This document shows, piece after piece, positions 14,101-31,332 of a stretch of 64,000 bases of DNA. The stretch is taken from the NCBI GenBank assembly GCA_944387755.1, contig CALXGC010000059.1, forward strand, positions 5,322 to 69,321, read 5' to 3'. The position numbers were made by a program, and so were the translations under genes. This stretch comes from an uncultured Oscillospiraceae bacterium. GTDB taxonomy: Bacteria > Bacillota_A > Clostridia > Oscillospirales > Oscillospiraceae. The stretch's first letter is position 1. Every line of letters begins with the position of its first letter. Below the pieces are notes generated by a model. It was not told the DNA's origin. It did no database searches and saw only the letters and a list, made by a program, of their open reading frames with translations.

Positions 14101-14182
14101 GCGCGCCGTGGTCAAAAGCCACAGAATCCAGGCAAGAATTTCATATAACTTCAATGAAAAACATACTTCTTGCTAAAACTTC

Positions 14183-14210
14183 TTGCCCCTTTTGGAAAAC
14201 GTGATATAAT
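14183..14210 (+). promoter_or_regulatory. Promoter of the 12-gene chaperone/AAA operon
   Basis: TTGCCC (14183-14188), 16 bases, perfect TATAAT (14205-14210). It lies in a markedly AT-rich 90-base stretch just after repeat block R3. No other clear promoter was seen inside the 17-kb gene run. Confidence 0.75.
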
Positions 14211-14255
14211 AGAAAAAAGGATGGGGAAACATGGAGCAGAAAGGAGGAGCATACC

Positions 14256-14606
14256 GTGAAAGAAACCACTCTGGCCCAGAAGATTCTCATTCTGCGCAGC
14301 GAGCAGGGCTGGACACAGCAGGAGCTGGCCAACCGCATCGGCACAACCCAGCGGACGGTGGCGGCCTGGGAGTCCGGGGACTCCATTCCCCGCAAGGCCA
14401 TGCGGGTGCGGATCGCCAAGGCCTTCGGGCTTCCGGAGGACCGCTTCCTGGGGGACGTCCATGAGACGCCGCCGGAGGCGGACGGGCAGGAGCCCACGGC
14501 CCGCCTGATGGAGCAGCTGGACGCCATGCTGTCCCGGCAGGCGGGAATCTCGGAGGAGAAGAAGACGATGGTGCTGCACTCGGTGTCGGAGCTGCTGAAG
14601 GGCTGA
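14256..14606 (+). CDS. XRE-family helix-turn-helix regulator, first gene of the operon
   Basis: A 116-residue regulator. Residues ~6-60 form a Cro/C1-type HTH: IRSEQGWTQQELANRIGTTQRTVAAWESG, then PRKAMRVRIAKAFGLPEDRFLG. The rest is a short helical tail (RLMEQLDAMLSRQ, SEEKKTMVLHSVSELLKG), perhaps for dimerisation. The start is a GTG, six bases after AAGGAGGAGC; an overlapping ATG frame at 14231 encodes a non-family peptide. As the first gene of the operon it probably regulates this promoter. The following Hsp70 gene starts 52 bases later. Confidence 0.92.
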   Translation: MKETTLAQKILILRSEQGWTQQELANRIGTTQRTVAAWESGDSIPRKAMRVRIAKAFGLPEDRFLGDVHETPPEADGQEPTARLMEQLDAMLSRQAGISEEKKTMVLHSVSELLKG

Positions 14607-14658
14607 CGCCGGTCTGGCGCGGAGAGAGAGAAATTTGACTGCAAGAGGAGGAGAGGCC

Positions 14659-16197
14659 ATGTTTATTATCGGACTGGACTTTGGAAACTGCTACTCGTTC
14701 CCCTGCTTCATCCGGGGGATGAACGCGGCCAGCCGCCTGGGCGGCACGCCGGTGGACCTGCTTCCGGCGGACCGGCACTACGGCTATCCCAGCGTGTTTT
14801 TTTATTCCAGGACGGCAGCAGAGCGGAGCAAAAAGAAGAACACCTCGCCGCCCCCCTGGTGCGGCGAGGAGGCCGTCAGCGGACTGGCCTCCCCCCGGAA
14901 GAACCGGATGAACAACCTGAAGCGCCATCTGGGCCAGCCTCTGGTGCTGGACGACTGGAAGGGCAGCTATGACGACGCCATCGTCCAGATGATTCAGTAC
15001 CTGGTGCGCCGGGCCAATCAGGTGCTCCAGGCGGAGACCATGACCGCCTCCAATCAGATCTCCCTGGCCCACCCGGCGACCTATAACCTCGCCCAGTGCG
15101 CCCGCCTGAAGGAGCTGGCGGAGAAGGCCACCCTGGAGGACGGGCGGCATGTGGAGGTGGTGGGCATGATCGACGAGCCCGCCGCCGCCGCCCTGGACTA
15201 TCTGGTGGAGAACGGCCGGGCCAACCAGGAGACCACCGTTCTCACCTATGACCTGGGAGGCGGGACCTTCGACCTGGCTGTGGTGACGGCCTTCCCCCAG
15301 GGGAAGAAGGACGCCAACGGCAAGCTCTATTACTACGACGTGGAGAAGACCGGCGGCGACGCCCAGCTGGGCGGTACGGAGTTTGACGCCGAGATGTTCA
15401 AGCTTCTCAAATCCAAGGTGCCCAGCGGCGCGCAGGTGTATGACGAGACGCTGCGGCAGGAGGCGGAAAAGGTCAAGATTCAGCTCAGCCGGGTGGAGGA
15501 GACCGGTCTGGAGCTCACCGACGCCACAGGGGACACCGTCTATCTGGAAGTGACCCGGGCCGAGTTCGAGCGCCAGTCCATGCCGCTGATTCAGAAAACC
15601 GTCGCCAGGGTCCGCGCCCTTCTGGAGAACTCCAAGGCCAGGGCCCCGGAGCTGATTGTCCTCACCGGCGGAGCCAGCCAGATGCCGGCCATCCAGCGGG
15701 AGCTGGAGAAGGCCTTCCCCGCCTTCCGGGGCAAAATCGTCCAGTACCGCCCCAGCCGGGCCATCGCCTACGGCGCCGCCCGGTACGGCACTCTCCGGGA
15801 GAGGCCGGTGCAGCGGCATGTGCCCAGGACCATCGGAATCCGCTTCTATGAGAAGGGCACCGACCGGGAGTATATCGACACCTATATCGAAGCGGGCACG
15901 CCCCTCCCCTTTGTCGGGGCATATTCCAAGTCCACCACCCGCAACGACAACCAGAAGCACTCCTTCTTCGGCGTGTACGAGGCCAAGGTGGACCACCCGG
16001 ATCCCGACCAGATTGACCGGGACTATATGGAGATCCTCTCCGTCACCCTGGACCACGGCGGGCCCGTACCCAAGGGAACCCCCACGGAGAGCCGCCTGCT
16101 CCTCAGCCAGGACGGCCTGCTGGAGGTCCAGGCCCGCGACCCCGCCAAGCCGGACAAGCCTGTCCGCAACACCTGCGTTCTGAAGAGTTTGAGCTGA
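14659..16197 (+). CDS. Hsp70-family protein A (DnaK-like, reduced C-terminus)
   Basis: A 512-residue Hsp70/actin-fold ATPase. Phosphate-1 loop IIGLDFGNCYSF (residues 3-14), connect-1 DEPAAAALDYL, phosphate-2 loop TYDLGGGTFDLAVV and adenosine loop VLTGGASQMPAI are all intact, so ATP hydrolysis is likely. DnaK is ~610-640 residues; here only ~125 residues follow the ATPase domain. They do not look like a full substrate-binding beta-sandwich plus lid, though they include a beta-rich segment (GIRFYEKGTDREY..GTPLPF) reminiscent of its first strands. ATG chosen at 14659 after GAGGAGAGG; an upstream TTG is in frame. It is followed by a second, more divergent Hsp70. Confidence 0.92.
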   Translation: MFIIGLDFGNCYSFPCFIRGMNAASRLGGTPVDLLPADRHYGYPSVFFYSRTAAERSKKKNTSPPPWCGEEAVSGLASPRKNRMNNLKRHLGQPLVLDDWKGSYDDAIVQMIQYLVRRANQVLQAETMTASNQISLAHPATYNLAQCARLKELAEKATLEDGRHVEVVGMIDEPAAAALDYLVENGRANQETTVLTYDLGGGTFDLAVVTAFPQGKKDANGKLYYYDVEKTGGDAQLGGTEFDAEMFKLLKSKVPSGAQVYDETLRQEAEKVKIQLSRVEETGLELTDATGDTVYLEVTRAEFERQSMPLIQKTVARVRALLENSKARAPELIVLTGGASQMPAIQRELEKAFPAFRGKIVQYRPSRAIAYGAARYGTLRERPVQRHVPRTIGIRFYEKGTDREYIDTYIEAGTPLPFVGAYSKSTTRNDNQKHSFFGVYEAKVDHPDPDQIDRDYMEILSVTLDHGGPVPKGTPTESRLLLSQDGLLEVQARDPAKPDKPVRNTCVLKSLS

Positions 16198-16246
16198 CGG
16201 GCGCGGCGGCCGCGCCCCTGCCAAGACAGGAAAGGTGGAATTTTAG

Positions 16247-17863
16247 ATGCAAAGACCACCCTCAGAAATTTATGGCTGCGACATCGGCAACGCCTTCGGC
16301 TTCCTCTCCCTTGTGCCGCGGGAGGGCGGGGAGGCCCAGCCGGTGTTCGCCCCCTCCGAAACCCTCAACGCCAACGAGGGAATGCCCACCGCGGCCTATA
16401 TCACCCCGCCGGACGGGACCCCCATCCGGGTCTATGACCCCAAGGGCGGCCCGGCCCTGGGGCTGATTCGCCGCAACCCCGCCTGCGGCGTGCGGGCGGT
16501 GAAGACCCGCCTGTGGGAGGACAGCCTGCCCCTGCCCGGCGTGGAGCGCTCCGTCTCCCCCTATGAGGTCTACGGGGCCATTGTGCGGGATATGATCCAG
16601 CTGGGCAATTTGAACCGCCTTGCAGAGCGGCGCTCCCCCATCTATGACCTGGTGATGACCTACCCGGCCTCCCTGCACAACGGAGCCAACGGCCTGGAGG
16701 TGCTCAACCGGATGCAGAAGAGCATCGAGGACGTGGTGCTGGACGGCCATCCCCTGCATGTGGCCGCCCGCATTCCAGAGCCGGCGGCGGTGGGCATTGA
16801 CTATCTCTACTGCCTTCAAAACCAGCTCCCGGAGGACCAGCGCTGGCAGAGGGCAGAGTTCACCGCCCTGGTCTATGACCTGGGCCACGGCACCTTCGAC
16901 ACCGCCGCCGTCACCGCCCGGAGCCAGGGGGAGCCCTATGAGGTCTGGGCCAGCGACGGCCTGCCCGACGTGGGGGGCCGGAACTTTGACGAGCGCCTGG
17001 TGGAGGAGCTGACGGAACTTCTGGAGCGGGAGTACGGCTATCAGCTCCAGAACGCCCAGGAGCGGGAGCAGCTCCTCCGGGAGGCCATCGAGATGAAGCA
17101 CACCCTCAGCCAGCATGATGAGGCGGCGGTGCAGCACCAAAACCTCCGGGACGGGAGCTATCTGGAGCTGTCCGTCACCCGCGCCCGGTTTGAGGCCCTC
17201 ACCCAGGACCTGCTCCACGAGACCCTGGAGAAGACCCAGGAGATGATCTCCAGCCAGACGGCCCATGGGCGGACCATCGACGCCATCGTCCTCTCCGGCG
17301 GGGCCAGCCAGATGCCCATGGTGAAGGCCGCCCTGGAGGCCCACCTCCAGCCCAGGCTGCCGGTGTACCTCTTCCGGCCCCAGAAGGCGGTGTCCTTCGG
17401 CGCGGCCCGCTATGCCCTGGGCGTCCGGCCGCTGCCGGACATGCCGCCCCGCCCGGAGCCGGACCCCCGCCCGAAGCCCCAGCCGGACCCCAGGCCGGTG
17501 GCCCAGCTCCACACCCGCCACGCCTACGGCGTGCTGGTGGAGGAGCCCGGCGTGCTGGACAGCCAGGTCCGCATTCTTCTGTCGGAGGGCGAACCCCTCC
17601 CCGCCTGGTCGGAGCCCCTGGACTTCCCGGTGGAGAGCGGGCGCATCGACGTGCAGGTCTACCGGCCTGAAGGGGCTCAGACCGCCGGGACGCTTCCCGC
17701 CGGGGACTGTGAAAATCTGGTCCGCCTGCACTTCGACGTCCCCCGCACGGAGCGGGGCAGGCTGACGCTGACGGTGGACAACGGCTATGACATCACCGCC
17801 AGGCTGGAGCTGCCCGACGGAACCGTCCAGATTCGCAGCACCGCAGACAGCCGGAAGGCGTGA
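16247..17863 (+). CDS. Hsp70-family protein B (divergent)
   Basis: A 538-residue second Hsp70-like ATPase. Phosphate-1 is YGCDIGNAFGF, phosphate-2 is VYDLGHGTFDTAAV (the GGG of DnaK is GHG), and the adenosine loop is VLSGGASQMPMV. Connect-1 EPAAVGIDYL is present. A proline-rich hinge (PPRPEPDPRPKPQPDPRP, about residues 397-420) links to a ~115-residue beta-rich tail with LLSEGEPLPAWSEPL, a small SBD-beta-like remnant without a helical lid. The altered phosphate loop may change hydrolysis. AAGGTGG precedes the ATG. It follows protein A by 49 bases, suggesting an obligate pair. Confidence 0.9.
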   Translation: MQRPPSEIYGCDIGNAFGFLSLVPREGGEAQPVFAPSETLNANEGMPTAAYITPPDGTPIRVYDPKGGPALGLIRRNPACGVRAVKTRLWEDSLPLPGVERSVSPYEVYGAIVRDMIQLGNLNRLAERRSPIYDLVMTYPASLHNGANGLEVLNRMQKSIEDVVLDGHPLHVAARIPEPAAVGIDYLYCLQNQLPEDQRWQRAEFTALVYDLGHGTFDTAAVTARSQGEPYEVWASDGLPDVGGRNFDERLVEELTELLEREYGYQLQNAQEREQLLREAIEMKHTLSQHDEAAVQHQNLRDGSYLELSVTRARFEALTQDLLHETLEKTQEMISSQTAHGRTIDAIVLSGGASQMPMVKAALEAHLQPRLPVYLFRPQKAVSFGAARYALGVRPLPDMPPRPEPDPRPKPQPDPRPVAQLHTRHAYGVLVEEPGVLDSQVRILLSEGEPLPAWSEPLDFPVESGRIDVQVYRPEGAQTAGTLPAGDCENLVRLHFDVPRTERGRLTLTVDNGYDITARLELPDGTVQIRSTADSRKA

Positions 17864-17895
17864 AGGCGCCAGGCGCCAAGTTAAGGAGGAACACC

Positions 17896-19365
17896 ATGGC
17901 AAAAACTGATTCGGCGATGTCGCTGCACTACCAGGCAAAAAACTACAGGGACAAACCCAGAGAGCTGTTTGACAGGCTCATCAACGCCATCCTGGAGGAT
18001 TACAAGTCCCATGGAAGGTGCGATTTTGTGGAGGAGCTGTGCAGCGGCCGGATTCCCAGCGTCACGCTGGCGGAGTACAGCGCCCTGCTGGAGGCGGACC
18101 ACTATCTGCGGCACGGGAAAAGAACCCACCCCGACTATCTTGCCGTCATCCCCCATGTCTACGACCATCGGGAGCGGGATGGCGTGCCAGTTTATATTCC
18201 GTGGGACCGGGGAATGACCTCCGTCCCGCCCTCTCAATATCAGGAGGAGGCCAGGCAGTTTGACAACCTGGCCCGGAACCATTTCCGGAGAGACAGGCAC
18301 AACGCCGTCCAGCCCGGCGCGCCGGGGGGCCGGAGAATTCCCATCGGCGACTCCATGGAGGCTTTGGAGAAGACGCCGGAGCCGCCCGCTCCGTCCCCCG
18401 CCCAGCCCGCCGCCCCTGTCTCCAAAGAAATTCAGGAGGCCAGAGCGCTGGCCAACAAGATTTTGGCGGAGGCCCGGCAGAAGGCCGAAAAAATCAAGCA
18501 GGACGCTGAGGACGAGGCCTACCGCATACAGGCGGAGGCTCAGACGGCGCGCAGCCAGGCGGAGGAGCTGCGTCTGGCCAACCAGCGCCGGCAGCAGGAG
18601 CTGGAGGCGGCCAAGGCGGCCCTCGCCCAGCAGCAGACGGAGCTGGAGCGCACGGCCCAGCAGCGGGCGGACCAGCTGACGGACCGCTACCTGTGGACCA
18701 GCCATCTGGAGATGCAGAAGGAGTGGGACGAACAGCAGGCCAAAAAGAACCAGGAGGACCAGACGGCGGCGGAGCTGGCCCGGATGAAGGACGAGCTGTG
18801 CCGCGAGACCACCGCCCTGAAGGCCGAGTGGCGGAAGGCCCTGGAGGAGACGGCGGAGAAGCTCACAGAACTGCAAAACGGGCTGGACAGCCGCCTGCGC
18901 CAGTGGCAGAGCGGCCTGTACCCCAGGGAGCTGCGCCCCCTGGCGGAGTGCTGCGCCCAGTTTTACCGGATTGTAAACAACGACCAGGCCCTCGCCGGCC
19001 AGGTGGCGCGCATGGCACAGGAGCCGGCCTCCCCCGCCGCTTCGGAGGAGCTGGTCAAATACCTCCAGCAGCGGCACAAGTCCCTGAAGGTCTTTCAGGG
19101 CAATCTGGAGAAGGCGGCGAACAAGCTGGGGCTGTTCCTCTCCTACCCGGAGGAGGGGAGCCCCTTTGACGACGCCCTCCAGACCCCGGCCAACGAGGGG
19201 ATTGAGGACCCCTACGGCATGGTGGTGGCCCGGTGCGAGACCCCCGGCGTCATCCGCCGCACCAGCGGCGAGCTGGAGGAGGGAGAGCCGGTTCTCCCCG
19301 CCATCGTCACCCTGAAGTCCCGCGGACCCAAGTGGGAGGAGGCGGCGCGCTATGGAGACGTATAA
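17896..19365 (+). CDS. Coiled-coil protein with C-terminal GrpE-like domain
   Basis: A 489-residue protein. Residues 1-135 are a conserved-looking globular region (YRDKPRELFDRLINAILEDY), a Pro/Ala-rich linker runs to ~180, and ~185-345 is a long coiled coil (ARQKAEKIKQDAEDEAYRIQ onwards). The C-terminal ~150 residues resemble GrpE: a helical run (LVKYLQQRHKSLKVFQGNL) then SPFDDALQTPANEG, GMVVARCETPGVIR and EGEPVLPAIVTLKS, which follow the GrpE beta-wing order (G-x-PFDP..HEA, G-x-V..GY, LRPA-x-V). I infer a nucleotide-exchange factor for the two Hsp70s. TAAGGAGGAACACC precedes the ATG at 17896. Confidence 0.78.
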   Translation: MAKTDSAMSLHYQAKNYRDKPRELFDRLINAILEDYKSHGRCDFVEELCSGRIPSVTLAEYSALLEADHYLRHGKRTHPDYLAVIPHVYDHRERDGVPVYIPWDRGMTSVPPSQYQEEARQFDNLARNHFRRDRHNAVQPGAPGGRRIPIGDSMEALEKTPEPPAPSPAQPAAPVSKEIQEARALANKILAEARQKAEKIKQDAEDEAYRIQAEAQTARSQAEELRLANQRRQQELEAAKAALAQQQTELERTAQQRADQLTDRYLWTSHLEMQKEWDEQQAKKNQEDQTAAELARMKDELCRETTALKAEWRKALEETAEKLTELQNGLDSRLRQWQSGLYPRELRPLAECCAQFYRIVNNDQALAGQVARMAQEPASPAASEELVKYLQQRHKSLKVFQGNLEKAANKLGLFLSYPEEGSPFDDALQTPANEGIEDPYGMVVARCETPGVIRRTSGELEEGEPVLPAIVTLKSRGPKWEEAARYGDV

Positions 19366-20260
19366 GGCCGCCATTCTGTACGACTTTACCCGCCACCGGG
19401 ACCAGCTGGGGGAAAAATTCCCCCTGACGGTGCTGGTGGCCGACCTGGACCGATGCGCCCTGGGTATCTGCCAGTGCGGGGAGAACGGGACCGCCGCCGT
19501 GCTGGACCAGATCTCCCTGCCCCAGCCGCGCCCCCTGGACCAGGTGTGGCTGGAGGGCCTGACGGGAGAGCCGGAGGCCCTTCGGACCGCCCTGACGTCG
19601 GAGGCCTTCCGCCGGGCCTTCCAGGCGTACTGCCAGGCCGGCCGGCGGCTGGAGCCGGAGGGGTCCCCGCTGTCCTGCCGTCAGGCCGGCGAGGCCTTCG
19701 CCCCCGTCCGCGCCGCCCTGGAGGCGCTGCTGAACCAGGGCCTGGACCGGCTGGAGCAGCTGGGCGTGGACGAGGCGTCGGTGCGGATTCTGGCGGTGGG
19801 CTGGCTGGCGGACTGCGCCCCGGCCCAGCTGGCCCTCCGGGAGGTTTTGTGCTTCGACCCCTTCCTCCCCGACGGGCGCTTCGCCGCCCTAAGGGAGGGG
19901 GAGCGGGCCGCCTCCATTGTGGAGGAGGGCCGAAAGCTGCTGGAGCAGTCCCGGACGGCGGAGGTGGACGTCTCCCTGCTGTGGACGGACGGCCAGGGCG
20001 GAGATGGGACGCCCATCCCCCTGGCGGAACGCGGCCAGCCCCTCTCCACCCTGGAGCAGCCCCGGTACAGTCCCCCCGTCTTTTCCGCCGGAGAGGTCCT
20101 GCGCTTCCAGGCGGGGGACCAGGCGCTGGAGGCGCCCCTCCCGGAGGGAGGACCGGCGCTGGTCCAGGCGGCCTGCGGGACCAGGGACGGACGGCTGGTG
20201 ATTCTGGTGCGGCGGGCGGAGAAGCCGGACCGGATTTGGACGGAAATTCCCGTGCCGTGA
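19352..20260 (+). CDS. Uncharacterised operon protein, possibly a degenerate actin-like fold
   Basis: A 302-residue protein that overlaps the preceding gene by 14 bases. I do not recognise a family. VRILAVGWLADCAPAQLAL followed by REVLCFDPFLPDGRF superficially resembles the Hsp70 adenosine loop (VLVGGSSR..P.VQ..L) and the strand after it, and TVLVADLDRCALGICQC near residue 26 resembles a phosphate-1 strand, but the glycines are lost. It could be a non-hydrolysing Hsp70 relative acting as scaffold or co-chaperone; this is speculation. A C-terminal beta-rich region ends in LVILVRRAEKPDRIW. Rich in Arg, Glu and Leu like its neighbours. Confidence 0.6.
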   Translation: METYKAAILYDFTRHRDQLGEKFPLTVLVADLDRCALGICQCGENGTAAVLDQISLPQPRPLDQVWLEGLTGEPEALRTALTSEAFRRAFQAYCQAGRRLEPEGSPLSCRQAGEAFAPVRAALEALLNQGLDRLEQLGVDEASVRILAVGWLADCAPAQLALREVLCFDPFLPDGRFAALREGERAASIVEEGRKLLEQSRTAEVDVSLLWTDGQGGDGTPIPLAERGQPLSTLEQPRYSPPVFSAGEVLRFQAGDQALEAPLPEGGPALVQAACGTRDGRLVILVRRAEKPDRIWTEIPVP

Positions 20261-20279
20261 AAGGAGGCAGAGGCAACAG

Positions 20280-21494
20280 ATGAACGACAGAGAAAAAAAG
20301 CGGCTGAGCCGGCAGCTTGTCCAGCAGGCCAAGCAGCTGGAGCAGCAGGACGGGGCGGAGCTGTCCGCCTCTCTTGTGACGGTGTGCACCGCCCTGCTGC
20401 GGGCGGCGTGGAGCCCGAAGGCCCCCGCCCTGCCGGAGGAGGCCTTCGACGCCCTGTACGCCCGCTATCTGGGGCTGAGCCAGGAGGCGGAGGGCTTCTT
20501 TCAGGAGGCCGTCCGGCGCTTCCAGGGCCGGACGGCTCAGGCCGGGGCGCTGGAGACCCTCCGGGCCCAGGCGGAGCGGCTGCGGGGGGAACTGGACGCG
20601 GCGGAGGCGGAGCGGCGGGCGCTGAAGGAACAGGCCGTCCGAAATCAGGCCCGGCTGGACAAGGTCAAAAAGCAGCTGGAGAACGCCCAGGACGCCCACC
20701 AGGCCCTGGAAAATCTTTTGAAGCAGTACACGCCGGAGAAGGTGGAGGCGCAGCGGGCGGAAAATGAGGCCCTGGCCCAGCGGGTGGGCGACTCCGGCGC
20801 CCGCCTGCGGGCGCTCCAGGAGGAGCGCAGCCGCCTGAAGGCGGAGCTGAGGCAGACGGAGGAGGCCCTGGACCAGGTTCCCCAGGAGAACCAGGTGCTG
20901 CTGGCCCAGTTTGAGGCCCAGCAGGCCCTGCTGGAGCGGCTTCGGACCGCCCAGGAGACCTGCACCCCGGAGCGGCAGCAGGAAATGCAGCGGGAGATCG
21001 ACGCCCTCGGCCCCGTGGTGGAGGAGAACCAGCAGGCGGTGCAGCTTCTGGAGCACCGGCTGGAGGATTTGAAGGGGCAGTACGTCCAGTACGACAGGGA
21101 GCGCCAGACTCTGAGCACCAACGTGCTGGAGGAGACCCAGCGGTCCCTGACGGAGCTCCAGGCCGCCCTGACGGGACACGAGGACCGCCTGGGGGCCATC
21201 CGCGAGCAGGCCGAGGCCCTCAGCGGCCGGCTGGCCGCCTGTCAGGAGGCCAGGCGGCAGTACCGGGACTGGCTGGAGGCGGACCGGACGCCGCTGGAGG
21301 CCATGATAGAGGCCCTGGGCCGCCCGGAGGCGGAGGAGCTGCGGCGCACCCTGGACCCCGGCAGCGTCCAGACGGTCCGGGACCTCCAAAACGATCTGGA
21401 GGAGCGCCTGCGGCAGCTGGACGAGATTTTGGACCGCTGCGTCCAGGCGGTCCAGACGGACCGGGCCGCCGTGGACAAGCGGGCCCGGCGGTGA
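20280..21494 (+). CDS. Long coiled-coil protein
   Basis: A 404-residue, almost entirely helical protein. Residues 1-85 are a globular-looking helical head (SRQLVQQAKQLEQQDGAEL, FDALYARYLGLSQEAEGFF). From ~90 to ~340 heptads dominate (LRAQAERLRGELDAAEAERR, ENEALAQRVGDSGARLRALQ). The tail (EELRRTLDPGSVQTVRDLQN) is again helical. No catalytic motif is seen. It starts 19 bases after the previous gene with GGAGGCAGAGG upstream and ends 12 bases before the radical SAM gene. A scaffolding or filament role in the complex is an inference from shape only. Confidence 0.75.
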   Translation: MNDREKKRLSRQLVQQAKQLEQQDGAELSASLVTVCTALLRAAWSPKAPALPEEAFDALYARYLGLSQEAEGFFQEAVRRFQGRTAQAGALETLRAQAERLRGELDAAEAERRALKEQAVRNQARLDKVKKQLENAQDAHQALENLLKQYTPEKVEAQRAENEALAQRVGDSGARLRALQEERSRLKAELRQTEEALDQVPQENQVLLAQFEAQQALLERLRTAQETCTPERQQEMQREIDALGPVVEENQQAVQLLEHRLEDLKGQYVQYDRERQTLSTNVLEETQRSLTELQAALTGHEDRLGAIREQAEALSGRLAACQEARRQYRDWLEADRTPLEAMIEALGRPEAEELRRTLDPGSVQTVRDLQNDLEERLRQLDEILDRCVQAVQTDRAAVDKRARR

Positions 21495-21506
21495 GGGGGC
21501 GGCGGA

Positions 21507-23632: not shown

Positions 23633-23641
23633 GATAGACAG

Positions 23642-23670
23642 GTCCCGGCTCCGCCCGCCGGAGCCGGGAC
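23642..23670 (+). other. Intercistronic 12-bp perfect hairpin
   Basis: GTCCCGGCTCCG, loop CCCGC, CGGAGCCGGGAC: a perfect 12-base GC-rich stem between the coiled-coil gene and the giant AAA gene, 21 bases before the latter's ATG. There is no T-run, so it is not a classical terminator. It may be an mRNA stability or processing element, or attenuate expression of the downstream genes. Confidence 0.7.
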
Positions 23671-23691
23671 AATCAGCAGGGAGGGAAGCCT

Positions 23692-26600
23692 ATGCTCAGC
23701 CGGAATCAGTCCTATTTTGACCGGGAGCTGTGCATCAACGGCCACTATATCATCACCGGCAACACCAACGACCAGTTCTGCGGGGACACGCTGGAGCTCA
23801 CCGACATTCTGCCGGAGATCCACCGCTACCTGCGGTACGGACAGGAGTTCGACGCGGTGTTCTTTCTGGACCGGGAGAATATGCTCTTCTGTCTGGACGA
23901 GCAGTCCTTCCGGATTCTCACCGGCGCGCCGGAGGAGGCTCCGGCCCCCGCGCCGGAGGAGCCGGTGTGCGCCGACGGGCCTCTGGGCCGCCGCCGGAGG
24001 CGGCCGGAGCGCCGGAGCGCCGGGGGAGCCGCTCCCCGGAGCGGCTCCGGGCCTTTGAACCTGGGGCGGATGTCCCTGGACGCGGCGTGGCGGCAGGTCT
24101 CCGCGGTGATGAAGCAGACCAGCTACCGCTGCGCCCTGGTGATCCGCAACGCCAACCGGATGCAGGGGGGCGAGGAGCTGCTGCTGGAGCTGTCCTCCTT
24201 CCACAGCACCAATCACAGCGTGGTGCTCTACCTCTTCCGGGAGACCACCCTGAACAACGTGGAGGAGTGGACCAGCTTCGCCCGGGACGTGCTCCTGCCC
24301 CGCATCCGGACCACCGACCCCAGGGAAAACCGGGTCATCTCTCTGCCCGCTCCCAACAGCCGGGAGGTGCGCAACCTCCTCAACCACCTGCGCTTCGACC
24401 GCCGGACGCCCCTGCTGGTTCGGGCGGGGGACGTCCAGCCCCTGGGAGAGATCCTCTCCGCAAGCTGCTCCCGGAACGCCTGGGGGCTGGTGAACCTGCT
24501 CAACCGCCTGCTGTGCTGCGCCAGAGACAACCCCGGCCTGGAGCTGTCCCTGGAGACGTGGCGGACCTTCACCGAGGAGCAGAACTACCGCTCCTCCATG
24601 GAGGAGCTGGAGGCCCTGGTGGGCCAGGAGCGCGTCAAGGAGCAGCTCCGGAGCTGGCGGGCCGACCAGGAGCGCCAGGGGAGCGTGCGCACAGAGCCCG
24701 TCTCCTCCAGCCGCTTCACCCCCCTGCCGGCCAGCAGCCGCCGCCTGGGCCAGACCCTCAACGTCCGCCTCAAGGGCAGCCCCGGCACAGGCAAGACCAC
24801 CATCGCCCGGCTTATGGGGCGCATCTACTATGAGCTGGGCCTGCTGCCCCAGGGGCAGCTTGTGGAGTGCAGCGCGGCGGACCTGGTGTCCGGCTATGTG
24901 GGCCATACCAGCGAGCAGGTGCGCCAGCGGGTGCAGGAGGCCATGGGGGGCGTCCTCTTTATTGACGAGGCCTACGCCCTGATGGACAGCGCCCACGGCC
25001 AGGAGGCCGTCAACCAGCTTGTCAACGATATGTCCTCCTATGAGGGGCAGTTCGCCGTGGTCGTCGCGGGCTATCCCCGGCACATCGACGCCCTCATGCG
25101 GGCCAACGACGGCCTGGCCAGCCGCTTCCCCAACGAGTATGTGCTGGAGGACTATACCCCGGAGGAGATGCAGCAAATCTTCCGGCAGATGGCCGCCGCC
25201 GGCCCGGACCAGGTCTCCTTCAGCCCGGAGCTGGAGGAGCGGATGGATGACTTCTTCTCCGCCTGGGTGGGGGGCCGCGGCAGCGGCTGGGCCAACGCCA
25301 GAGAGGCCCAGTCTCTGCTGGTGGAGATGAAGAAGCTGTGCAGCCTCCGGGAGGCCGGCCAGGGGGCCATGGGCCCCGGCTACCGGCTGACGGAGGCCGA
25401 CGTGCCGGAGCGCCTGCGCCGCTGCCTGGAGCCCCAGAGCCGGGGCCCCCAGGAGGCCATGGCGAAAATCGACGCCATGATCGGCCTGGACGGGGTCAAG
25501 CGCTTCCTCCGTGGGCTGACCCAGCGCATTCTGCTGGGGGAGCGGGAGAGCGGACCGGGCAACTTCATCTTCTCCGGCCCGCCGGGCACCGGCAAGACCA
25601 CGGTGGCCCGGCAGATGGGCGACCTGCTGGGCCTGCTCCGGGTGGTGGAGCGGCGGACCAACAACGTCACGGAGGTCCGTGCGGCCGACCTGCTCAACGG
25701 GGCGCGGGACCTCAACGAGGCGGTGGAGTCCGCCCGGCGGGGGGTGTTCTTCCTGGACGAGGCACATCAGCTTGCGGACAGCGACCGGGGGCGGCAGATC
25801 ATCCGCGCCCTGGTCCCCCTGGTGGAGGACCCGGACATCCGGGCGGACACCTGCTTCATCTGCGCGGGCTACACCGTGGAGATGGAGCGCTTCCTGGCCG
25901 CGGACGACGGCCTGGAGCGGCGCTTCCCCCTCCAGAACCGCATCCGCTTCCACGACTACACCGCCGGGGAGCTGGTGCAGATTCTGGAGAAGCTGGCCAG
26001 AGAGCAGGGGCAGCTTCCCCAGCCGGACTATCTGGAGCGCTCCCGCCTGGCCCTGGAGGCCTATCTGGAGCGCCGCCCCGCCAACTTCGGCAACGGCGGC
26101 TTCATCCGCTCGGTGTACCTCCCCGGCTCCATTCAGGCCCGCACCCGGCGGCTGAGCCGCCAGGCCGCCGGGTCCCCGGACGCCATCCTCACCCCGGAGC
26201 AGCTTGCGGCCATCTCCCCGGAGGAGCGGAAGACCCTCACCGGACAGGACCTGCCCGACGCCTTCGCCCGGCTGGCCGGGCCGGCGGGCCGCCGGCCGGC
26301 GGAGTCCCTCAGCGCCTGGGACCGGGTGGAGGCCCTGCTGGGCAAGGAGGAGATGGTGGACTTCGCCCGCGCCCGGCGCTCCGGCGGAGAGGAGCAGGTC
26401 TTCTTTGACGCCGCCGCCCCGGTGGGCCTCCACTACTCCGTGGCCGGACCGCCGGGCTGCGGCCGGCACACCGCCGTCCGGGCCCTGTCCGCCCTCTGGA
26501 AGGAGCTGGGCCTGCTGGAGCGGGACGACGTGATCTGCGCCGGAAAGGGCGACCTGGAGGGCAGCTATGTGGGCCACACCGCCCAGAAGACCCGGTCGGT

Positions 26601-28752
26601 CATCCAGCGGGCGGTGGGGGGCACCCTGGTGGTGGAGTCCCCCAGCAGCCTGCTGCCCAAGTCCGGGACGGACAACAGCTTCGGCCCGGAGGCCCTGGGA
26701 GAGCTGAGCGCCGCCCTGGGAGCCCACGCCAGCGACCTGTGCGTGGTGTTCCTGGACTCCCCGGAGGGCATCGAGGCCCTCTTCCAGGCCCAGCCCGGCC
26801 TGCGGGGACAGCTCACCCGGACCTTCACCCTGGAGGACCTGTCCCCGGAGCACATGCTGTCCATCTTCCGGGCAAAGACCCGGTACAGCATGAAGCTGGA
26901 GGACGCCCTGGAGGCCCGCCTGCCCGACTTCTTCCTCAACTGGGTGAGCAGCCGGGGCGGGCTGGGGGACAACAGCCGGAGCTGGAGCAACGGCGCGGAG
27001 GTGGACCGCCTTATTGAAGATCTGAAGCTCAACTGGAAAAACGCCGGGGGCGTCACGGCGGAGGACGCCGTCCAGGAGGGCGGGCAGAGCTATACCCTCA
27101 CCCGCCGCCTCATCACCCAGGCGCATATCCCCCAGAATCTGCGGCGCTACCTCCGGGAGACCGCCGCCGTCTCCCAGGAGGCCATGGCCCAGCTGGAGGC
27201 CCTGCCCGGCCTCCAGAGCGTCAAGGCCTCCATCCGCGGAATCGAACGCCGCCTGCGCCGCCTGGGAACGGGCAAGCCGGGGTGCTACCTCTACCTGGGC
27301 AATCCGGGGGTGGGCAAGACCACGGTGGCCCGGCTGATGGGCGGGGTGCTCCGGGCCGCCGGGGCCCTCAGCCAGGGCCACGTCATCGAGCGCACCGCCC
27401 GGCAGATGGGAGACAACCTCAGCCAGTTCGACCAGACCCTGAAGCTGGCCCGGGGCGGCGTGCTGTTTATCGACGAGGCCCACCAGCTGGCCGAGCCCCA
27501 CAACTACTGGGGCCAGGAGGTCATCAAGCGCCTGCTCACCGTGCTGGAGGACGACCAGGTGACGGACTCCACCTGCATCATTTTGGCCGGATACCCCCAG
27601 CCCATGCTCCAGCTGATCCGGCGGGACGAGGGCCTGGCCAGCCGCTTCGGCTCCCAGGAGAGCATTTTGTACTTCGCGGACTACAACGAGACAGAGCTGG
27701 CGGAGGTGATGGACTACATGGCCCGCCGGGCGGACCGCGTCTCCGCCATCGGGGCGGTCCGGCCCCTGGAGCTGGACGAGGCCTACCGCCGGCGCAGCCG
27801 GGAGGTGTTCGCGGCGGTGCTGGCCCGGCAGGACAGCACCTTCGGCAACGCCCGCTTTGTGCGCACCTATCTCCACGACTCCCTCAGCGCCCAGCTGGAG
27901 CGCCTGGACCGGGAGTACGGCACGGACGACCCCCCGGTGGACGTGGTGGACCGTCTCACAGAGGCGGACGTCCCCAGCCGGTACCACAGCCTGTCCGGGC
28001 GCCGCCGGCCTGCGGTCCGGCTCAGCCGGGAGGAGCTGGACGTCCGGCGGGGCGCCGGGGTGACGGAGCTGACCTACGACCAGGCCTGCGAGGACCTGGC
28101 CCGCAGCGTGGTATACCTGGAGCTGTGGAAGGACGGACAGAAGGTGGGCGAGGGCACGGGGACCATCATCACCCAGGGCGGGCTGGTGCTCACCTGCGCC
28201 CATGTGGTCCGGGACGCCGGCCGCATCCGCGCCCGCGTCTGCTGCCCCGGCGCCCCCGGCGGGGACACCCGCTGGTTTGAGACCACCGTGCTGGAGCCTG
28301 TGTGCAGCGACTGCGACATGGCTCTGCTCCAGCTGGACGGGACGCATTTTGTGCCGGCGGCCCTCCGTCCGGCGGAGGAGCCGGTGCGCCCTGGGGAACA
28401 GACGCTGCTGCTGGGCTACCCCCTGGGGCAGACGCTGGCCGGCGGGAATCCGGAGACCCTGCGGGTGAGCAACTTCGCCGGTCGGGTGGCCTCCATCCAG
28501 CCGGCCGGAGCGGTGGAGCGCTGCTTCATCGACACCACGGGCCTGCACGGCAACTCCGGCAGCCCGGTGTTCTCCCAGCAGGACCGCCGGGTCATCGGCG
28601 TGTTCTCCGGGTCCCTGGTGCCCGACCGGGAGCAGTCTCTGGACGAGCTGAACTTCTTCTACCCCATTCGCTATCTCTGGGAACGCTTTGCCCGCCGGTC
28701 CGCCCCTGAACCGCGGCCCGCCGGAGAAGAGGAGGAATATGATGCGCGCTGA
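23692..28752 (+). CDS. Giant multi-AAA+ protein with C-terminal trypsin-like protease
   Basis: A 1686-residue protein. Order: N-terminal region 1-95 (YIITGNTNDQF..RYGQEFDAVFFLDRENML); Arg-rich linker; ATPase-like region without Walker A (~120-300); then four CbxX/CfqX (SpoVK)-type AAA+ modules beginning near 303, 586, 876 and 1164. Walker A: GSPGTGKTT (362), GPPGTGKTT (629), GPPGCGRHT (919, degenerate), GNPGVGKTT (1203). Walker B: FIDEAYAL, FLDEAHQL, VVESPSSL (degenerate), FIDEAHQL. The last ~215 residues are a chymotrypsin/DegP-like protease: His1504 (LTCAHVV), Asp1542 (CDMALLQL), Ser1622 (GNSGSPVF). No signal peptide, so cytoplasmic. I infer an ATP-driven unfoldase-protease in one chain. 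GGGAGGGAAGCCT precedes the ATG. Confidence 0.92.
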   Translation: MLSRNQSYFDRELCINGHYIITGNTNDQFCGDTLELTDILPEIHRYLRYGQEFDAVFFLDRENMLFCLDEQSFRILTGAPEEAPAPAPEEPVCADGPLGRRRRRPERRSAGGAAPRSGSGPLNLGRMSLDAAWRQVSAVMKQTSYRCALVIRNANRMQGGEELLLELSSFHSTNHSVVLYLFRETTLNNVEEWTSFARDVLLPRIRTTDPRENRVISLPAPNSREVRNLLNHLRFDRRTPLLVRAGDVQPLGEILSASCSRNAWGLVNLLNRLLCCARDNPGLELSLETWRTFTEEQNYRSSMEELEALVGQERVKEQLRSWRADQERQGSVRTEPVSSSRFTPLPASSRRLGQTLNVRLKGSPGTGKTTIARLMGRIYYELGLLPQGQLVECSAADLVSGYVGHTSEQVRQRVQEAMGGVLFIDEAYALMDSAHGQEAVNQLVNDMSSYEGQFAVVVAGYPRHIDALMRANDGLASRFPNEYVLEDYTPEEMQQIFRQMAAAGPDQVSFSPELEERMDDFFSAWVGGRGSGWANAREAQSLLVEMKKLCSLREAGQGAMGPGYRLTEADVPERLRRCLEPQSRGPQEAMAKIDAMIGLDGVKRFLRGLTQRILLGERESGPGNFIFSGPPGTGKTTVARQMGDLLGLLRVVERRTNNVTEVRAADLLNGARDLNEAVESARRGVFFLDEAHQLADSDRGRQIIRALVPLVEDPDIRADTCFICAGYTVEMERFLAADDGLERRFPLQNRIRFHDYTAGELVQILEKLAREQGQLPQPDYLERSRLALEAYLERRPANFGNGGFIRSVYLPGSIQARTRRLSRQAAGSPDAILTPEQLAAISPEERKTLTGQDLPDAFARLAGPAGRRPAESLSAWDRVEALLGKEEMVDFARARRSGGEEQVFFDAAAPVGLHYSVAGPPGCGRHTAVRALSALWKELGLLERDDVICAGKGDLEGSYVGHTAQKTRSVIQRAVGGTLVVESPSSLLPKSGTDNSFGPEALGELSAALGAHASDLCVVFLDSPEGIEALFQAQPGLRGQLTRTFTLEDLSPEHMLSIFRAKTRYSMKLEDALEARLPDFFLNWVSSRGGLGDNSRSWSNGAEVDRLIEDLKLNWKNAGGVTAEDAVQEGGQSYTLTRRLITQAHIPQNLRRYLRETAAVSQEAMAQLEALPGLQSVKASIRGIERRLRRLGTGKPGCYLYLGNPGVGKTTVARLMGGVLRAAGALSQGHVIERTARQMGDNLSQFDQTLKLARGGVLFIDEAHQLAEPHNYWGQEVIKRLLTVLEDDQVTDSTCIILAGYPQPMLQLIRRDEGLASRFGSQESILYFADYNETELAEVMDYMARRADRVSAIGAVRPLELDEAYRRRSREVFAAVLARQDSTFGNARFVRTYLHDSLSAQLERLDREYGTDDPPVDVVDRLTEADVPSRYHSLSGRRRPAVRLSREELDVRRGAGVTELTYDQACEDLARSVVYLELWKDGQKVGEGTGTIITQGGLVLTCAHVVRDAGRIRARVCCPGAPGGDTRWFETTVLEPVCSDCDMALLQLDGTHFVPAALRPAEEPVRPGEQTLLLGYPLGQTLAGGNPETLRVSNFAGRVASIQPAGAVERCFIDTTGLHGNSGSPVFSQQDRRVIGVFSGSLVPDREQSLDELNFFYPIRYLWERFARRSAPEPRPAGEEEEYDAR

Positions 28753-29815
28753 ACAAAAAAACCGCTGCCCCGTATGCGGAAGCGGCGCCGCTCCCGCCGC
28801 CCCGGCGTGCGCCTGTCCGGTGTGCGGGTTTGCCTGGGCCTTTGCCGGGCATTTCGCGGGGAAAGCCAGCCGGGACGCCTGGGCCCAGGCCGCCCAGGCG
28901 GAGCGCGGCCCGCTGCTGCGCCGGATGCAGGAGCTGTGCCGGGAGGGAGAGCTGTTCTCCCTCCAGGGCGGTGTGCTGGCCGTCCGCCTGGCCCGGCAGG
29001 GAATTTTGTGCCTGCTGCGGGGCGGCCGTGTGGAGCCCCAGGGCCCGGAGGTGCTGCAATACAGCGCGCCGGAACACGCCGGGCAGAACGAGGTCCGCCT
29101 GCTGGCCGGAGGCGGCGTGCGCTGCTCCGGGGACAACGAGTACCGGCAGTGCGACGGGGAGAGCTTTCGGGGAATCCGCCGGGTGCTGGCCCAGGCCAAG
29201 TGCACCTACGCCGTCACAGAGGACGGTCAGGTGCTGTGCAGCGGCCAGCCCGTCTCCCCGGAGGTGCTCCGGTGGAGGCACATCCGGGACCTGGTCTGCG
29301 GACCCTACCATGCGGCAGGGCTGACGGAGGACGGCCGGGTGCTGATTGCCGGCCCCATGCTCAACCGGGAGGTTGCCAGAACGGTGGAGCGCTGGCGGGA
29401 CGTGACGGCGGTGGCCTGCGCCGGGGACGCCACTCTGGGCCTGCGCCGGGACGGCACGGCGGTGTTCGCCGGCCGGCCGGAGGACCCCCGCCGGGCGGCG
29501 GAGAGCTGGCGGGGCGTCACGGCCATCGCCATGGAGAGCGTGTACGCCGTGGGCCTCACCGGAGAGGGCCGGATTCTGCTGGCGGGAGAGAACCCAAACG
29601 ACTATCTGGACATGGGCCGGAAGGAGGCCGCCGGCTGGCAAAACATCGCGGCCGTCTCGTGCAGCCGCTCCGGCATTGCCGCCCTGGAGATGGACGGGAC
29701 GCTCCATCTGGCCGGGAACATCCGGGAGGGGGCCAGGCTGCTGGAGACCTGGGCCGGCCTGCGGGAGGAGGCCCACCGGGAGCTGGTACAGGCGGCCCGG
29801 CACGCCGGAAGCTAG
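28742..29815 (+). CDS. Zinc-ribbon protein with RCC1-like beta-propeller repeats
   Basis: A 357-residue protein. Residues ~8-29 hold two CxxC pairs (RCPVCGSG..CACPVCGF), a zinc ribbon. After a helical stretch, residues ~110-330 are repeats of ~45-50 residues with a RCC1-like pattern: LAQAKCTYAVTEDGQVLCSG, GPYHAAGLTEDGRVLIAG, CAGDATLGLRRDGTAVFAG, ESVYAVGLTGEGRILLAG, SRSGIAALEMDGTLHLAG. Such propellers bind proteins. It overlaps the AAA gene by 11 bases. I prefer the second of two adjacent ATGs (28742), six bases after AGGAGG. It is probably an adaptor for the AAA-protease or Hsp70s. Confidence 0.82.
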   Translation: MRAEQKNRCPVCGSGAAPAAPACACPVCGFAWAFAGHFAGKASRDAWAQAAQAERGPLLRRMQELCREGELFSLQGGVLAVRLARQGILCLLRGGRVEPQGPEVLQYSAPEHAGQNEVRLLAGGGVRCSGDNEYRQCDGESFRGIRRVLAQAKCTYAVTEDGQVLCSGQPVSPEVLRWRHIRDLVCGPYHAAGLTEDGRVLIAGPMLNREVARTVERWRDVTAVACAGDATLGLRRDGTAVFAGRPEDPRRAAESWRGVTAIAMESVYAVGLTGEGRILLAGENPNDYLDMGRKEAAGWQNIAAVSCSRSGIAALEMDGTLHLAGNIREGARLLETWAGLREEAHRELVQAARHAGS

Positions 29816-29825
29816 GAGGAACGCT

Positions 29826-30611
29826 ATGAACATCATACGACAGATTGCGCCGCTGCTGCTGTGCGCGGCGCTGGCGCTGCCCGCCGGAGCCGCCGGGACC
29901 TTTCCGGACGTGCCGGAGGACCACTGGGCCAGCGAGGCGGTGGAGGCTATGGCGGAGCAGGGCCTGTTTGCCGGCACGGAGGAGGGCCGCTTCTCCCCGG
30001 ACCAGGCCATGACCCGCGGAATGCTCACCCAGGTGCTCTACCGCAGCGCCGGTTCTCCAGCGGTCCCGGAGGGGGACGCCCCCTTCCAGGACTGGCCGGA
30101 GATGTCCGGACAGTACTACGCCGGGGCGGTGCGCTGGGCCAGCCAGAACCAGATTTACCCGGACTGGGTGGCCTCCGGAGAGCGGCTGAACCCCAATCAG
30201 GAGGTCAGCCGGGGGGAGTTCGCGGTGATGCTCTACCGCTACTCCATCCAGGTGGAACAGACCGCCGCCGGTTTTCTGCCCGCCGACCTGGTGGAGCAGC
30301 TTTTGACGGAGACGCACTACGCCGACATGGGGGTGGAGGCCCTGGGCCCCAACGACCCGTCGGCCTCCCCGGAGGCCGCCCGGATTTATCAGATTCGGGA
30401 GGCTATGCTGGGCTGGGCGGTCCCCAACGGGATTCTCACCGGCACCAGCTCCACCACCCTCTCCCCCAATAAGGCGGTGACGCGGGCCCAGGCCGCCATG
30501 ATGCTCTTCCGGTGCAGCCAGGTCTTCGGCAGCAGGACGGAGGACGCCCAGCCCAACGCGGCCCCCGCCAATCCGGAGGAGCCGGCGGTTCCAGAGGAGG
30601 CAGTATCATGA
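29826..30611 (+). CDS. Exported S-layer-homology (SLH) protein
   Basis: A 261-residue secreted protein. Residues 1-23 are a signal peptide (NIIRQIAPLLLCAALALPAGA). Three SLH modules follow: FPDVPEDHWASEAVEAMAEQG with FSPDQAMTRGMLTQVLYR; FQDWPEMSGQYYAGAVRWA with NPNQEVSRGEFAVMLYR; and a third with LGWAVPNGILTG and LSPNKAVTRAQAAMMLFR. SLH triplets anchor proteins to pyruvylated wall polymers. No cargo domain is present beyond an acidic, Pro-rich tail. TAGGAGGAACGCT precedes the ATG at 29826. It is odd in a cytoplasmic chaperone operon and may be an external sensor or marker. Confidence 0.9.
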   Translation: MNIIRQIAPLLLCAALALPAGAAGTFPDVPEDHWASEAVEAMAEQGLFAGTEEGRFSPDQAMTRGMLTQVLYRSAGSPAVPEGDAPFQDWPEMSGQYYAGAVRWASQNQIYPDWVASGERLNPNQEVSRGEFAVMLYRYSIQVEQTAAGFLPADLVEQLLTETHYADMGVEALGPNDPSASPEAARIYQIREAMLGWAVPNGILTGTSSTTLSPNKAVTRAQAAMMLFRCSQVFGSRTEDAQPNAAPANPEEPAVPEEAVS

Positions 30612-31294
30612 CTGAGGAACACAGCCTGCGCGTCGTCGCCCGCATCCACAGCAGCTTTCCCACAAAATTCGGCATTCCCCGGCAGAGCGGCCTGGTGGAG
30701 GCCCTGCGGGCCATGGTGGTCTTCGAGCCGGAGTTCCGCAATCCCGACGCCCTGCGGGGGCTGGAGGGATTCAACTACATCTGGCTCATCTGGCAGTTCT
30801 CCCAGTCGGCGCGGGAGGGCTGGTCCCCCACCGTGCGCCCGCCCCGCCTGGGAGGCAACGTCCGCATGGGCGTATTCGCCACCCGCGCCCCCTTCCGGCC
30901 CAACCCCATCGGCCTGTCCTGCGTGGGGCTGGAAAAAATAGAACGCCACCCGCAGTACGGACCTGTACTCTGGGTGACGGGGGCCGATTTGATGGACGGA
31001 AGTCCGATTTATGACATAAAACCCTATGTGCCCTACGCCGACTGCCATCCGGACGCCGCGGGGGGCTTTGCCAGCCTCCCCAAGGAGCCCACCCTCCAGG
31101 TGCATATCGCCCCGGAGCTGCTGGCAAGCGTCCCGGAGACGCTGCGGGAGGCCCTTCTGGGCGTGCTGGCCCAGGACCCGCGCCCCCCCTACCAGCACCA
31201 GGCGGACCGGATTTACGGCCTGTCCTTCGGCGGCATGGAGATTAAATTCACTGTGGCGGAGGACGTGCTCACCGTTCAAAGCGTCGAACAATGA
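30608..31294 (+). CDS. trmO: tRNA m6t6A37 methyltransferase TrmO (YaeB/TsaA family)
   Basis: A 228-residue SAM-dependent enzyme that N6-methylates t6A37 in tRNA. Family hallmarks: VVARIHSSFPTKFGIPRQSG at the start, LEGFNYIWLIWQF, PPRLGGNVRMGVFATRAPFRPNPIGLS-type motif (residues ~75-100), and DLMDGSPIYDIKPYVPYAD. The start at 30608 overlaps the SLH stop (ATGA), so it is coupled to the exported protein. This housekeeping gene is the last of the operon. A GC-rich hairpin (31296-31323) follows the stop. Confidence 0.93.
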   Translation: MTEEHSLRVVARIHSSFPTKFGIPRQSGLVEALRAMVVFEPEFRNPDALRGLEGFNYIWLIWQFSQSAREGWSPTVRPPRLGGNVRMGVFATRAPFRPNPIGLSCVGLEKIERHPQYGPVLWVTGADLMDGSPIYDIKPYVPYADCHPDAAGGFASLPKEPTLQVHIAPELLASVPETLREALLGVLAQDPRPPYQHQADRIYGLSFGGMEIKFTVAEDVLTVQSVEQ

Positions 31295-31295
31295 A

Positions 31296-31323
31296 CAGGG
31301 GCGGACCCACCGGTCCGCCCCTG
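31296..31323 (+). terminator. Hairpin after trmO (possible terminator)
   Basis: CAGGGGCGGACC-CACC-GGTCCGCCCCTG is a perfect 12-base stem two bases after the stop codon. It lacks a T-run, so termination efficiency is uncertain. Confidence 0.45.
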
Positions 31324-31332
31324 AACCTTCCG

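Follow-up and report, generated by a model that had tools for sequence, protein, structure and literature searches.

A conserved nine-gene cluster joining Hsp70 proteins, a radical SAM enzyme and an AAA-trypsin protein, and its possible role as a switchable protein-cutting machine

Does a run of genes that sets Hsp70 proteins, a radical S-adenosylmethionine (rSAM) enzyme and an AAA protein fused to a protease domain side by side encode a single machine, and what would such a machine do? The question is raised by a stretch of 64,000 nucleotides from an uncultured Oscillospiraceae bacterium (contig CALXGC010000059.1; hereafter the window, GC content 65.5%), in which the genes from 14256 to 31294 are all carried by the + strand with spacings of -14 to +59 nt, in line with the short gaps and start/stop overlaps reported in a preliminary description of this DNA as a twelve-gene proteostasis operon. 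Nine of these genes form a real and conserved cluster, in the order Hsp70-A, Hsp70-B, a coiled coil with a GrpE-like C-terminal domain (CC1), a small predicted Hsp70-like protein, a second coiled coil (CC2), the rSAM enzyme, a third coiled coil (CC3), the AAA-trypsin protein and a zinc-ribbon/RCC1 protein. They are tentatively proposed to make up one switchable protein-cutting machine, in which modification of the CC3 tail by the rSAM enzyme would license an AAA protease gated by chaperones. Gene content, family membership and conserved order are observed here; the chemistry and the role are inferred.

The conservation of the cluster was assessed with a profile built from 31 aligned AAA-trypsin proteins, which yielded 33 loci when one genome per species was searched. 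Seven of them (L001-L007) carry an AAA protein at least 40% identical to that of the window. In these loci, every gene present on the contig follows the order and strand of the window from Hsp70-A to the zinc-ribbon/RCC1 gene, a homologue of which lies directly 3' of the AAA gene in 7/7 cases. L002 starts within Hsp70-B, and L004 and L005 start within CC1, owing to contig limits; the AAA gene of L006 is interrupted by stops, and CC2 of L005 was found only by profile (60 bits). Co-occurrence of the Hsp70, AAA-trypsin and rSAM genes outside this genome, which the preliminary description had named as the check on its proposal, was found in order in all five close relatives with contigs that extend to the Hsp70 genes (L001, L002, L003, L006 and L007). 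The full cluster is present in L003, which belongs to Flavonifractor sp. An92. The two last genes of the run, encoding an SLH protein (29826-30611, + strand; SLH E 4.3e-24) and the tRNA modification protein TrmO (30608-31294, + strand; TrmO_N E 4.6e-45, TIGR00104 142.9 bits), gave no match in L001-L007 at E 1e-3, with 7-10 kb available behind the AAA gene in L002, L003 and L005 and less than 2 kb in the others. They were rejected as members of the unit, so that the twelve genes first listed are all present and only nine are conserved members. The cluster is rare. Among 394 genomes of one order, for each of which two candidates were scored, a full match was obtained only in G003, the already known search centre; G072 showed two long pieces, G294 a partial match, and the 14 remaining matches, of 17 in all, span about 220-330 positions. 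A viral origin was rejected, 16 loci on viral contigs showing only AAA similarity to the window proteins.

The AAA-trypsin protein (23692-28752, + strand; 1686 aa) consists of an N-terminal module, four CbxX-like AAA modules and a C-terminal HtrA/trypsin-type protease domain. The initial label of a fourfold AAA-trypsin protein holds for the four modules and the Trypsin_2 domain, and has to be amended in two respects. Modules 1, 2 and 4 have intact Walker A and B motifs, whereas module 3 is degenerate (GPPGCGRHT, a Walker A without its lysine, and LVVESPSS), and an N-terminal module is added, to which no Pfam family was assigned among the best 25 of 38 matches. Among solved structures, AAA module 1 is closest to EccA1 and CbbX, and the protease domain to HTRA1/HTRA2. 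The residues H1504, D1542 and S1622 are invariant in 31 aligned AAA-trypsin proteins, and the C-terminal domain (PF13365 E 1.6e-21) carries the His-Asp-Ser triad of a putative HtrA/trypsin-type protease. In L005, a separate second trypsin-like frame (99 bits) begins at 10002, directly behind the AAA-trypsin gene.

The chaperone side of the cluster starts with the two Hsp70s of the preliminary description, both borne out by PF00012: Hsp70-A (14659-16197, + strand; E 4.8e-34) and Hsp70-B (16247-17863, + strand; E 1.2e-30). Hsp70-A combines a nucleotide-binding domain with a beta-type substrate-binding domain; it carries the DFGN, K96, EP and GGGT motifs and can be aligned with DnaK as far as residue 503 of 520, a stretch that includes the beta substrate-binding domain and is not followed by a helical lid. 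With ATP-site motifs and a substrate-binding domain, it reads as an Hsp70 proper. Hsp70-B has a proline-rich linker and a short C-terminal domain, and its alignment is limited to residues 202-390. A separate motif check indicated that both proteins keep the ATP site (DFGN or DIGN, a lysine, EP and G[GH]GT). A plasmid search with Hsp70-B returned 156 records, with identities below 60% and none at 80% coverage.

A third, shrunken Hsp70-like protein is likely encoded at 19352-20260 (+ strand; 302 aa), a gene that had been listed as of unknown nature, because the predicted structure of its product (AF2, pLDDT 89.6 from 9 sequences) matches the Hsp70 family in Foldseek. The best match is 5obu, a DnaK without lid (E 7e-10), and 49/50 of the PDB matches listed are Hsp70-family structures or complexes with them, the remaining one (7sqc_Z0) being labelled only as ciliary apparatus. 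TM scores of about 0.4 and a large rmsd suggest that its domains are differently arranged or partly lost. The family profile of this protein gave 0 matches against PDB sequences.

The exchange factor is less easily recognized. In the CC1 homologues of five Clostridia relatives, Pfam GrpE finds three: L007 with 25 bits (26.5 with neighbours in frame), L006 with 20.2 and L003 with 14.5, so that the cut-off of 25.8 bits is reached only in the L007 genome and with neighbours included. Profile comparison of CC1 (17896-19365, + strand; frame opening at GTG 17860) with GrpE by hhalign gave 74-84% probability for two GrpE sequences; against GrpE 8gb3, the CC1 family profile reached E 0.053, many unrelated coiled coils scoring better. 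The earlier GrpE-like assignment is therefore carried by three of five relatives rather than by the window protein, and the dedicated exchange factor that it implied is plausible. CC2 (20280-21494, + strand; 404 aa) is kept in L001-L007, and a Pfam scan of the window protein found no family in it.

The rSAM enzyme (21507-22112, + strand; PF13353 E 2.4e-31) carries the CX3CX2C and GGE motifs, and its residues C29, C33, C36, G71, G72 and E73 are invariant in 19 aligned rows. Its best curated match is NrdG, with 104.1 bits for a cut-off of 126.1, and family scans of the window proteins detected no glycyl-radical enzyme in the cluster, whether of the NrdD, the PFL or another family. With a score below the cut-off and no NrdD family at hand, it does not read as an NrdG activase. 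Its constant close neighbour is instead CC3: the two genes are directly adjacent in L001-L007, L010, L016 and L018, and one gene apart in L008. More than one NrdG-like match was found in 12/15 genomes searched. In Clostridia, the rSAM profile is unselective, at least 222 of 391 genomes being matched at 1e-30, mostly by ordinary NrdG on the author's reading; for this reason, the top matches were taken as system-like, and 20 lower-scoring ones served as controls. Seventeen of these 20 contain an NrdD-like frame, meaning a long frame with a glycyl-radical-type motif at its end, as picked out by a regular expression and not by an NrdD model; with L106 and L107, they constitute the 19 NrdD-like loci. 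Another type of rSAM neighbour is seen in L094, L095 and L101, where small proteins starting with MSFYTVI[NK]TEL lie between a 710-aa protein and the rSAM enzyme.

CC3 (22109-23632, + strand) adjoins the rSAM gene and starts with MSGRKTTY. This Met-Ser-Gly (MSG) start recurs in its family: 35/39 relatives begin with MSG[RKIV]K, one has the motif internally after a likely misplaced start, and three lack it (P0153, P0156 and P0157, the last two being short pieces). In an alignment of 36 rows, M1 and S2 do not vary at all, and G3 and K5 are nearly invariant. The start is present in 30/35 proteins of such loci, spread over six of eight BLAST clusters formed with the first 12 residues left out, some of which coiled coils may link falsely. 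In L007, the MSG start sits on the GrpE-like protein instead of CC3. The distances of CC3 and the rSAM enzyme correlate in 12 loci (Mantel r 0.62, p 0.0002), a correlation that can reflect common descent, as the loci are not independent. In L019 (5718), L151, L153 and L154, the residues that follow the MSG start read as hydrophobic and membrane-like, not as a coiled coil.

Whether this start belongs to the rSAM enzyme was approached by counting. In 114 loci (without L034-L067 and L108-L127; a first survey left out L050-L067 and L108-L127), an MSG protein of at least 200 aa, counted near the rSAM gene where the locus has one, is present in 29/38 loci with rSAM and an AAA protein bearing the N-terminal module versus 10/62 loci with rSAM and without that AAA protein (Fisher 2.5e-9), the latter including the 19 NrdD-like loci and their 10 matches looking unrelated on the author's reading. 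The figures are 1/4 for loci with this AAA protein only and 1/10 for loci with neither. The 29/38 count is partly circular, since 26 of the 38 loci trained the AAA-module profiles and several were picked after MSG proteins had been seen; the held-out loci, with an MSG protein in 7/12 (p 0.004), thus provide the fairer figure. In the scoring, L011 was counted as a miss by a ribosome-site rule though its CC3 starts with MSGEKE, L007 as a match through its GrpE-like protein, and some misses are cut contigs (for instance L014, L069, L104, L155 and L160).

Strand comparisons go in the same direction. In the earlier locus set, the MSG start occurs in 29/874 same-strand versus 4/438 opposite-strand starts (p 0.008). 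Thirteen of 30 loci fetched after the idea had been formed have it near the rSAM gene, and within 6 kb of that gene it amounts to 14/423 same-strand versus 1/268 opposite-strand starts (p 0.013); the matches in L150 and L165 look unrelated to the author. An MSG neighbour was also recorded in 27/51 system-like loci versus 0/19 NrdD-like loci, a contrast confounded by composition (median GC 53% versus 34%). The 51 loci comprise 23 AAA loci and the 28 of 59 other rSAM loci that score at least 155, with 31 dropped; before this cut, 18/59 had an MSG start, several in evident housekeeping genes on the author's reading.

The CC3 tail is read as the likely substrate or docking tag of the rSAM enzyme and the AAA ring. 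It may resemble the RVSGY motif of PFL. A strict glycyl-radical role of Gly3 was rejected because five proteins vary at position 3 while Ser2 is kept (MSN, MSE, MSI, MSS and MSA).

Beyond Clostridia, part of the cluster reappears as a smaller core made of the rSAM enzyme, an AAA protein with the shared N-terminal module and an MSG protein. Outside Bacillota, rSAM, CC3, AAA and Hsp70 are found in one locus in Desulforhabdus sp. TSK (L010), Thiocapsa KS1 (L011) and Brocadia (L018), and rSAM, AAA, Hsp70 and an MSGPK-type protein in L022 (Nitrospirae), L025 (Deltaproteobacteria) and L027 (Abditibacterium). The wider co-occurrence is incomplete in distant Bacillota: the AAA-trypsin protein of L009 is accompanied by neither an rSAM nor an Hsp70 match, and L019 and L029 hold rSAM, AAA and an MSG protein with no Hsp70 match. 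In L102, from the class of the Flavonifractor genome, an AAA protein with a trypsin-like end, a protein CC3-like by eye and rSAM are joined by a weak Hsp70 (106 bits to the author's profile, no Pfam match). Trypsin-like AAA ends also occur in L009 (156 bits), L010 (127), L025 (37) and L026 (31); a profile scan gave no trypsin match in L011, L018, L019, L022, L027 and L029. The relative in L018 scores above the SpoVK, CbbX and EccA cut-offs.

Some of these cores bring further genes. L148, a locus from the phylum of L027, reads, in this order, kinase, rSAM, kinase-like, MSG coiled coil, AAA, vWA, FHA, PP2C and kinase-like. The calls come from Pfam for the first kinase, AAA, vWA, FHA and PP2C; Pfam gave no family for the coiled coil, and the rest is read from sequence. 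The first 260 aa of the CbxX-type AAA proteins are homologous to the N-terminal part of the AAA_2-type protein of this locus (hhalign 97.9%, E 5.6e-13). L016 has a PP2C-type gene below the cut-off of the model, and in Brocadia, DO-GTPase2 and GAP1-N2 genes (L018, 17372-20416) follow shortly after the rSAM-CC3-AAA-Hsp70 core, so that this locus connects two system types known from the literature. The kinase, PP2C, vWA and FHA genes of L148 and the GTPase genes of L018 thus point to a triggered system rather than to general proteostasis.

In the machine proposed here, the GrpE-like factor would reset the lid-less Hsp70s, which would hold a client or a conformational state; with the shrunken Hsp70-like protein, the Hsp70s would hand clients to the four-module AAA protein with its own protease domain. 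As scans of the window proteins with Pfam and curated models found no J-domain family in the cluster, the choice of clients may lie with the coiled coils or with the zinc-ribbon/RCC1 protein. CC3 would dock on the AAA ring, for which CbbX, an enzyme that pulls on a flexible tail, is among the nearest solved structures. An rSAM reaction on residues 2-5 of CC3 would alter this docking, and the ring would then feed the protease only when a particular condition applies, for example a redox state or an intruder, with the XRE protein probably controlling expression. Somewhat doubtful is the broader possibility that AAA machines of one family, spread over several phyla, owe their licensing to a new post-translational mark, which an NrdG-like rSAM enzyme would set on the extreme N-terminus (Met-Ser-Gly-x-Lys) of a dedicated partner protein, the window holding the Hsp70-fed protease version.

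Besides the limits given with the counts, several findings weigh against the proposed machine. The GNSG[SG]P motif near the C-terminus is missing in 33/111 AAA relatives, some truncated and some variant, and ten relatives of 1454-1512 aa have neither a listed trypsin family nor a C-terminal serine motif (P0005, P0041, P0043, P0048, P0049, P0057, P0080, P0086, P0099 and P0111). The CC1 protein of the window taken alone matches 0 Pfam families, GrpE included, and Pfam GrpE found no CC1 homologue in L001 and L002 (2/5 relatives). A fold search of CC3 gave no PDB match (best E 0.1). Position 3 is not glycine despite the presence of rSAM in L005 (N), L007 (E), L102 (I), L149 (S) and L069 (A), and an MSG start is found in 5/31 rSAM loci that score under the cut (median GC 62%). 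The rSAM frames of L011 lie at least 7 kb behind the end of CC3. The MSG start could also go with the AAA protein and not with the rSAM enzyme, as rSAM loci without that AAA protein mostly lack such a start.

The reading that survives best next to this machine departs from it more in biological role than in mechanism. In a conflict system, directed against phages or leading to self-destruction, the chaperone and AAA parts would silence the protease until a signal from an invader sets it free, with death or arrest of the cell as the outcome. This role is rather unlikely, and it has points in its favour: the sporadic presence of the cluster among genomes, the uneven distribution of the protease domain among relatives, and the kinase, vWA, FHA and PP2C genes of L148, the PP2C-type gene of L016 and the DO-GTPase2 and GAP1-N2 genes of L018, which belong to the vocabulary of the systems treated in PMC7159879. 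However, the neighbours of L003 look like housekeeping genes when read from sequence, and PADLOC returned only generic AAA, coiled-coil and protease matches in the cluster, for which a defence label was rejected.

A dedicated proteostasis pathway, in which the Hsp70s bring misfolded clients to the AAA protease, was the reading of the preliminary description and is now weakly supported. It would account for Hsp70, GrpE-like, AAA and HtrA-like protease domains standing side by side, and the Hsp70-ClpB pair offers a precedent. However, the cluster is rare and patchy for a housekeeping role, it lacks a detectable J-domain family, six relatives show no trypsin match, related cores bear kinase, PP2C, vWA, FHA or GTPase genes, another GrpE above the cut-off is encoded elsewhere in 10/10 relatives' genomes, and the rSAM enzyme, CC3 and the regulator would be left unexplained; this pathway is accordingly judged improbable. 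Least probable is an ordinary NrdG activase placed in the operon by chance next to a merely favoured translation start, a reading suggested by the best curated match, by the variable Gly3, by the share of composition in the MSG contrast and by Met-Ser being a common protein start, and opposed by the rSAM-CC3 adjacency in seven Clostridia loci and in L010, L016 and L018, the several NrdG-like matches of most genomes, the 0/19 NrdD-like loci (with their GC bias) and the strand excess of the earlier locus set.

The remaining features of the locus concern its borders. A promoter-like site with an extended -10 (TTGCCC-16-TATAAT, 14183-14210, + strand) is, as first claimed, the sole one on the + strand within 13800-31700, and it is a consensus match only. 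It precedes an XRE-type helix-turn-helix regulator gene (14256-14606, + strand; PF01381 E 7e-13), a homologue of which occupies the same place in L001 and L003. The Hsp70-A frame opens at TTG 14635, ATG 14659 being read as the likelier start. The last conserved gene (28742-29815, + strand) encodes a zinc ribbon, read from sequence, and RCC1-like repeats (RCC1_2 E 2e-12). The ORFs 28774-29829 and 29861-30472 were rejected as lying in the wrong frame, codon-position GC favouring 28742-29815 and 29826-30611, whose start codons were picked by eye. The first family calls for the NrdG-like rSAM, Trypsin_2, RCC1_2, SLH and TrmO proteins, like those for the two Hsp70s, were all recovered. On the - strand, a Dynamin_N GTPase (E 2.7e-16) with a zinc-ribbon-like start and its 267-aa partner (31564-34016) converge on the operon; neither has a match in L001-L007 at E 1e-3. 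The window also contains an HSP90 gene (htpG, 44221-46140; E 1.3e-116) and a gene for an N6_N4 DNA methylase domain protein (10536-11951; E 2.1e-23).

How does this assembly stand among known systems? With the CbbX, SpoVK and EccA ATPases it shares an AAA module 1 that matches the EccA1 and CbbX structures; it differs from them in that four modules, an N-terminal module and a protease domain share one chain in the window protein. The rSAM enzyme shares family matches and the CX3CX2C and GGE motifs with the NrdG/PflA activases and differs from them by its coiled-coil partner and by a cluster in which no glycyl-radical enzyme family was found. The Hsp70-ClpB bi-chaperone also couples Hsp70 to an AAA motor. 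ClpB works without a protease. The cluster differs from this pair by its other AAA family and by the lack of a J-domain family in the scans.

No description of this assembly was found in the open-licence PMC literature, the scope of the search, subscription papers lying outside it. The earlier statement that no named system has these parts stands within that scope, with the addition that the conflict systems of PMC7159879 come closest among published ones; the terms CbbX and rSAM are absent from the main text of that paper. The FtsH ternary systems are defined there by MoxR, vWA and an FtsH-type AAA protein, and their radical SAM enzyme likely modifies a peptide-effector encoded by another gene. 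Their simpler type may be akin to the window cluster in its radical SAM enzyme, which here has the gene of CC3, the putative target, beside its own, and in an AAA protein with an inactive first module, to which the N-terminal 260 aa of the CbxX type, homologous to the N-terminal part of the L148 protein, may correspond. The window cluster has instead a CbxX-type AAA protein fused to a protease, with Hsp70 and a GrpE-like factor, and no MoxR or vWA family was found by Pfam among its proteins (the AAA protein being judged by the best 25 of 38 families). The second relative is the Hsp70 theme of the GAP1-N2 GTPase systems, which comprises an Hsp70, a GrpE and sometimes a second Hsp70 (PMC7159879). 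The Hsp70s of the window fit this theme, the GrpE part of the likeness resting on relatives. Neither a GTPase nor a GAP1 family was detected by Pfam among the cluster proteins of the window, GAP1-N2 and DO-GTPase2 being present in L018. The section of PMC7159879 on this theme mentions neither radical SAM nor CbxX proteins, and a trypsin appears in it only for other GAP1-N2 systems.

The cluster is thus a real, conserved and unnamed assembly, apparently a variant of AAA/rSAM conflict-type systems, with a plausible mechanism. If the proposed machine exists, bacteria would possess a protein-cutting device that brings its own chaperones and is switched by radical chemistry. The MSG tail of CC3 would then offer a concrete substrate for the kind of rSAM enzyme whose target is left open in PMC7159879, the only paper on related systems that the open-licence search brought up. 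The cluster would also link two system types, the FtsH ternary systems and the Hsp70 theme of the GAP1-N2 systems, that are treated separately there.

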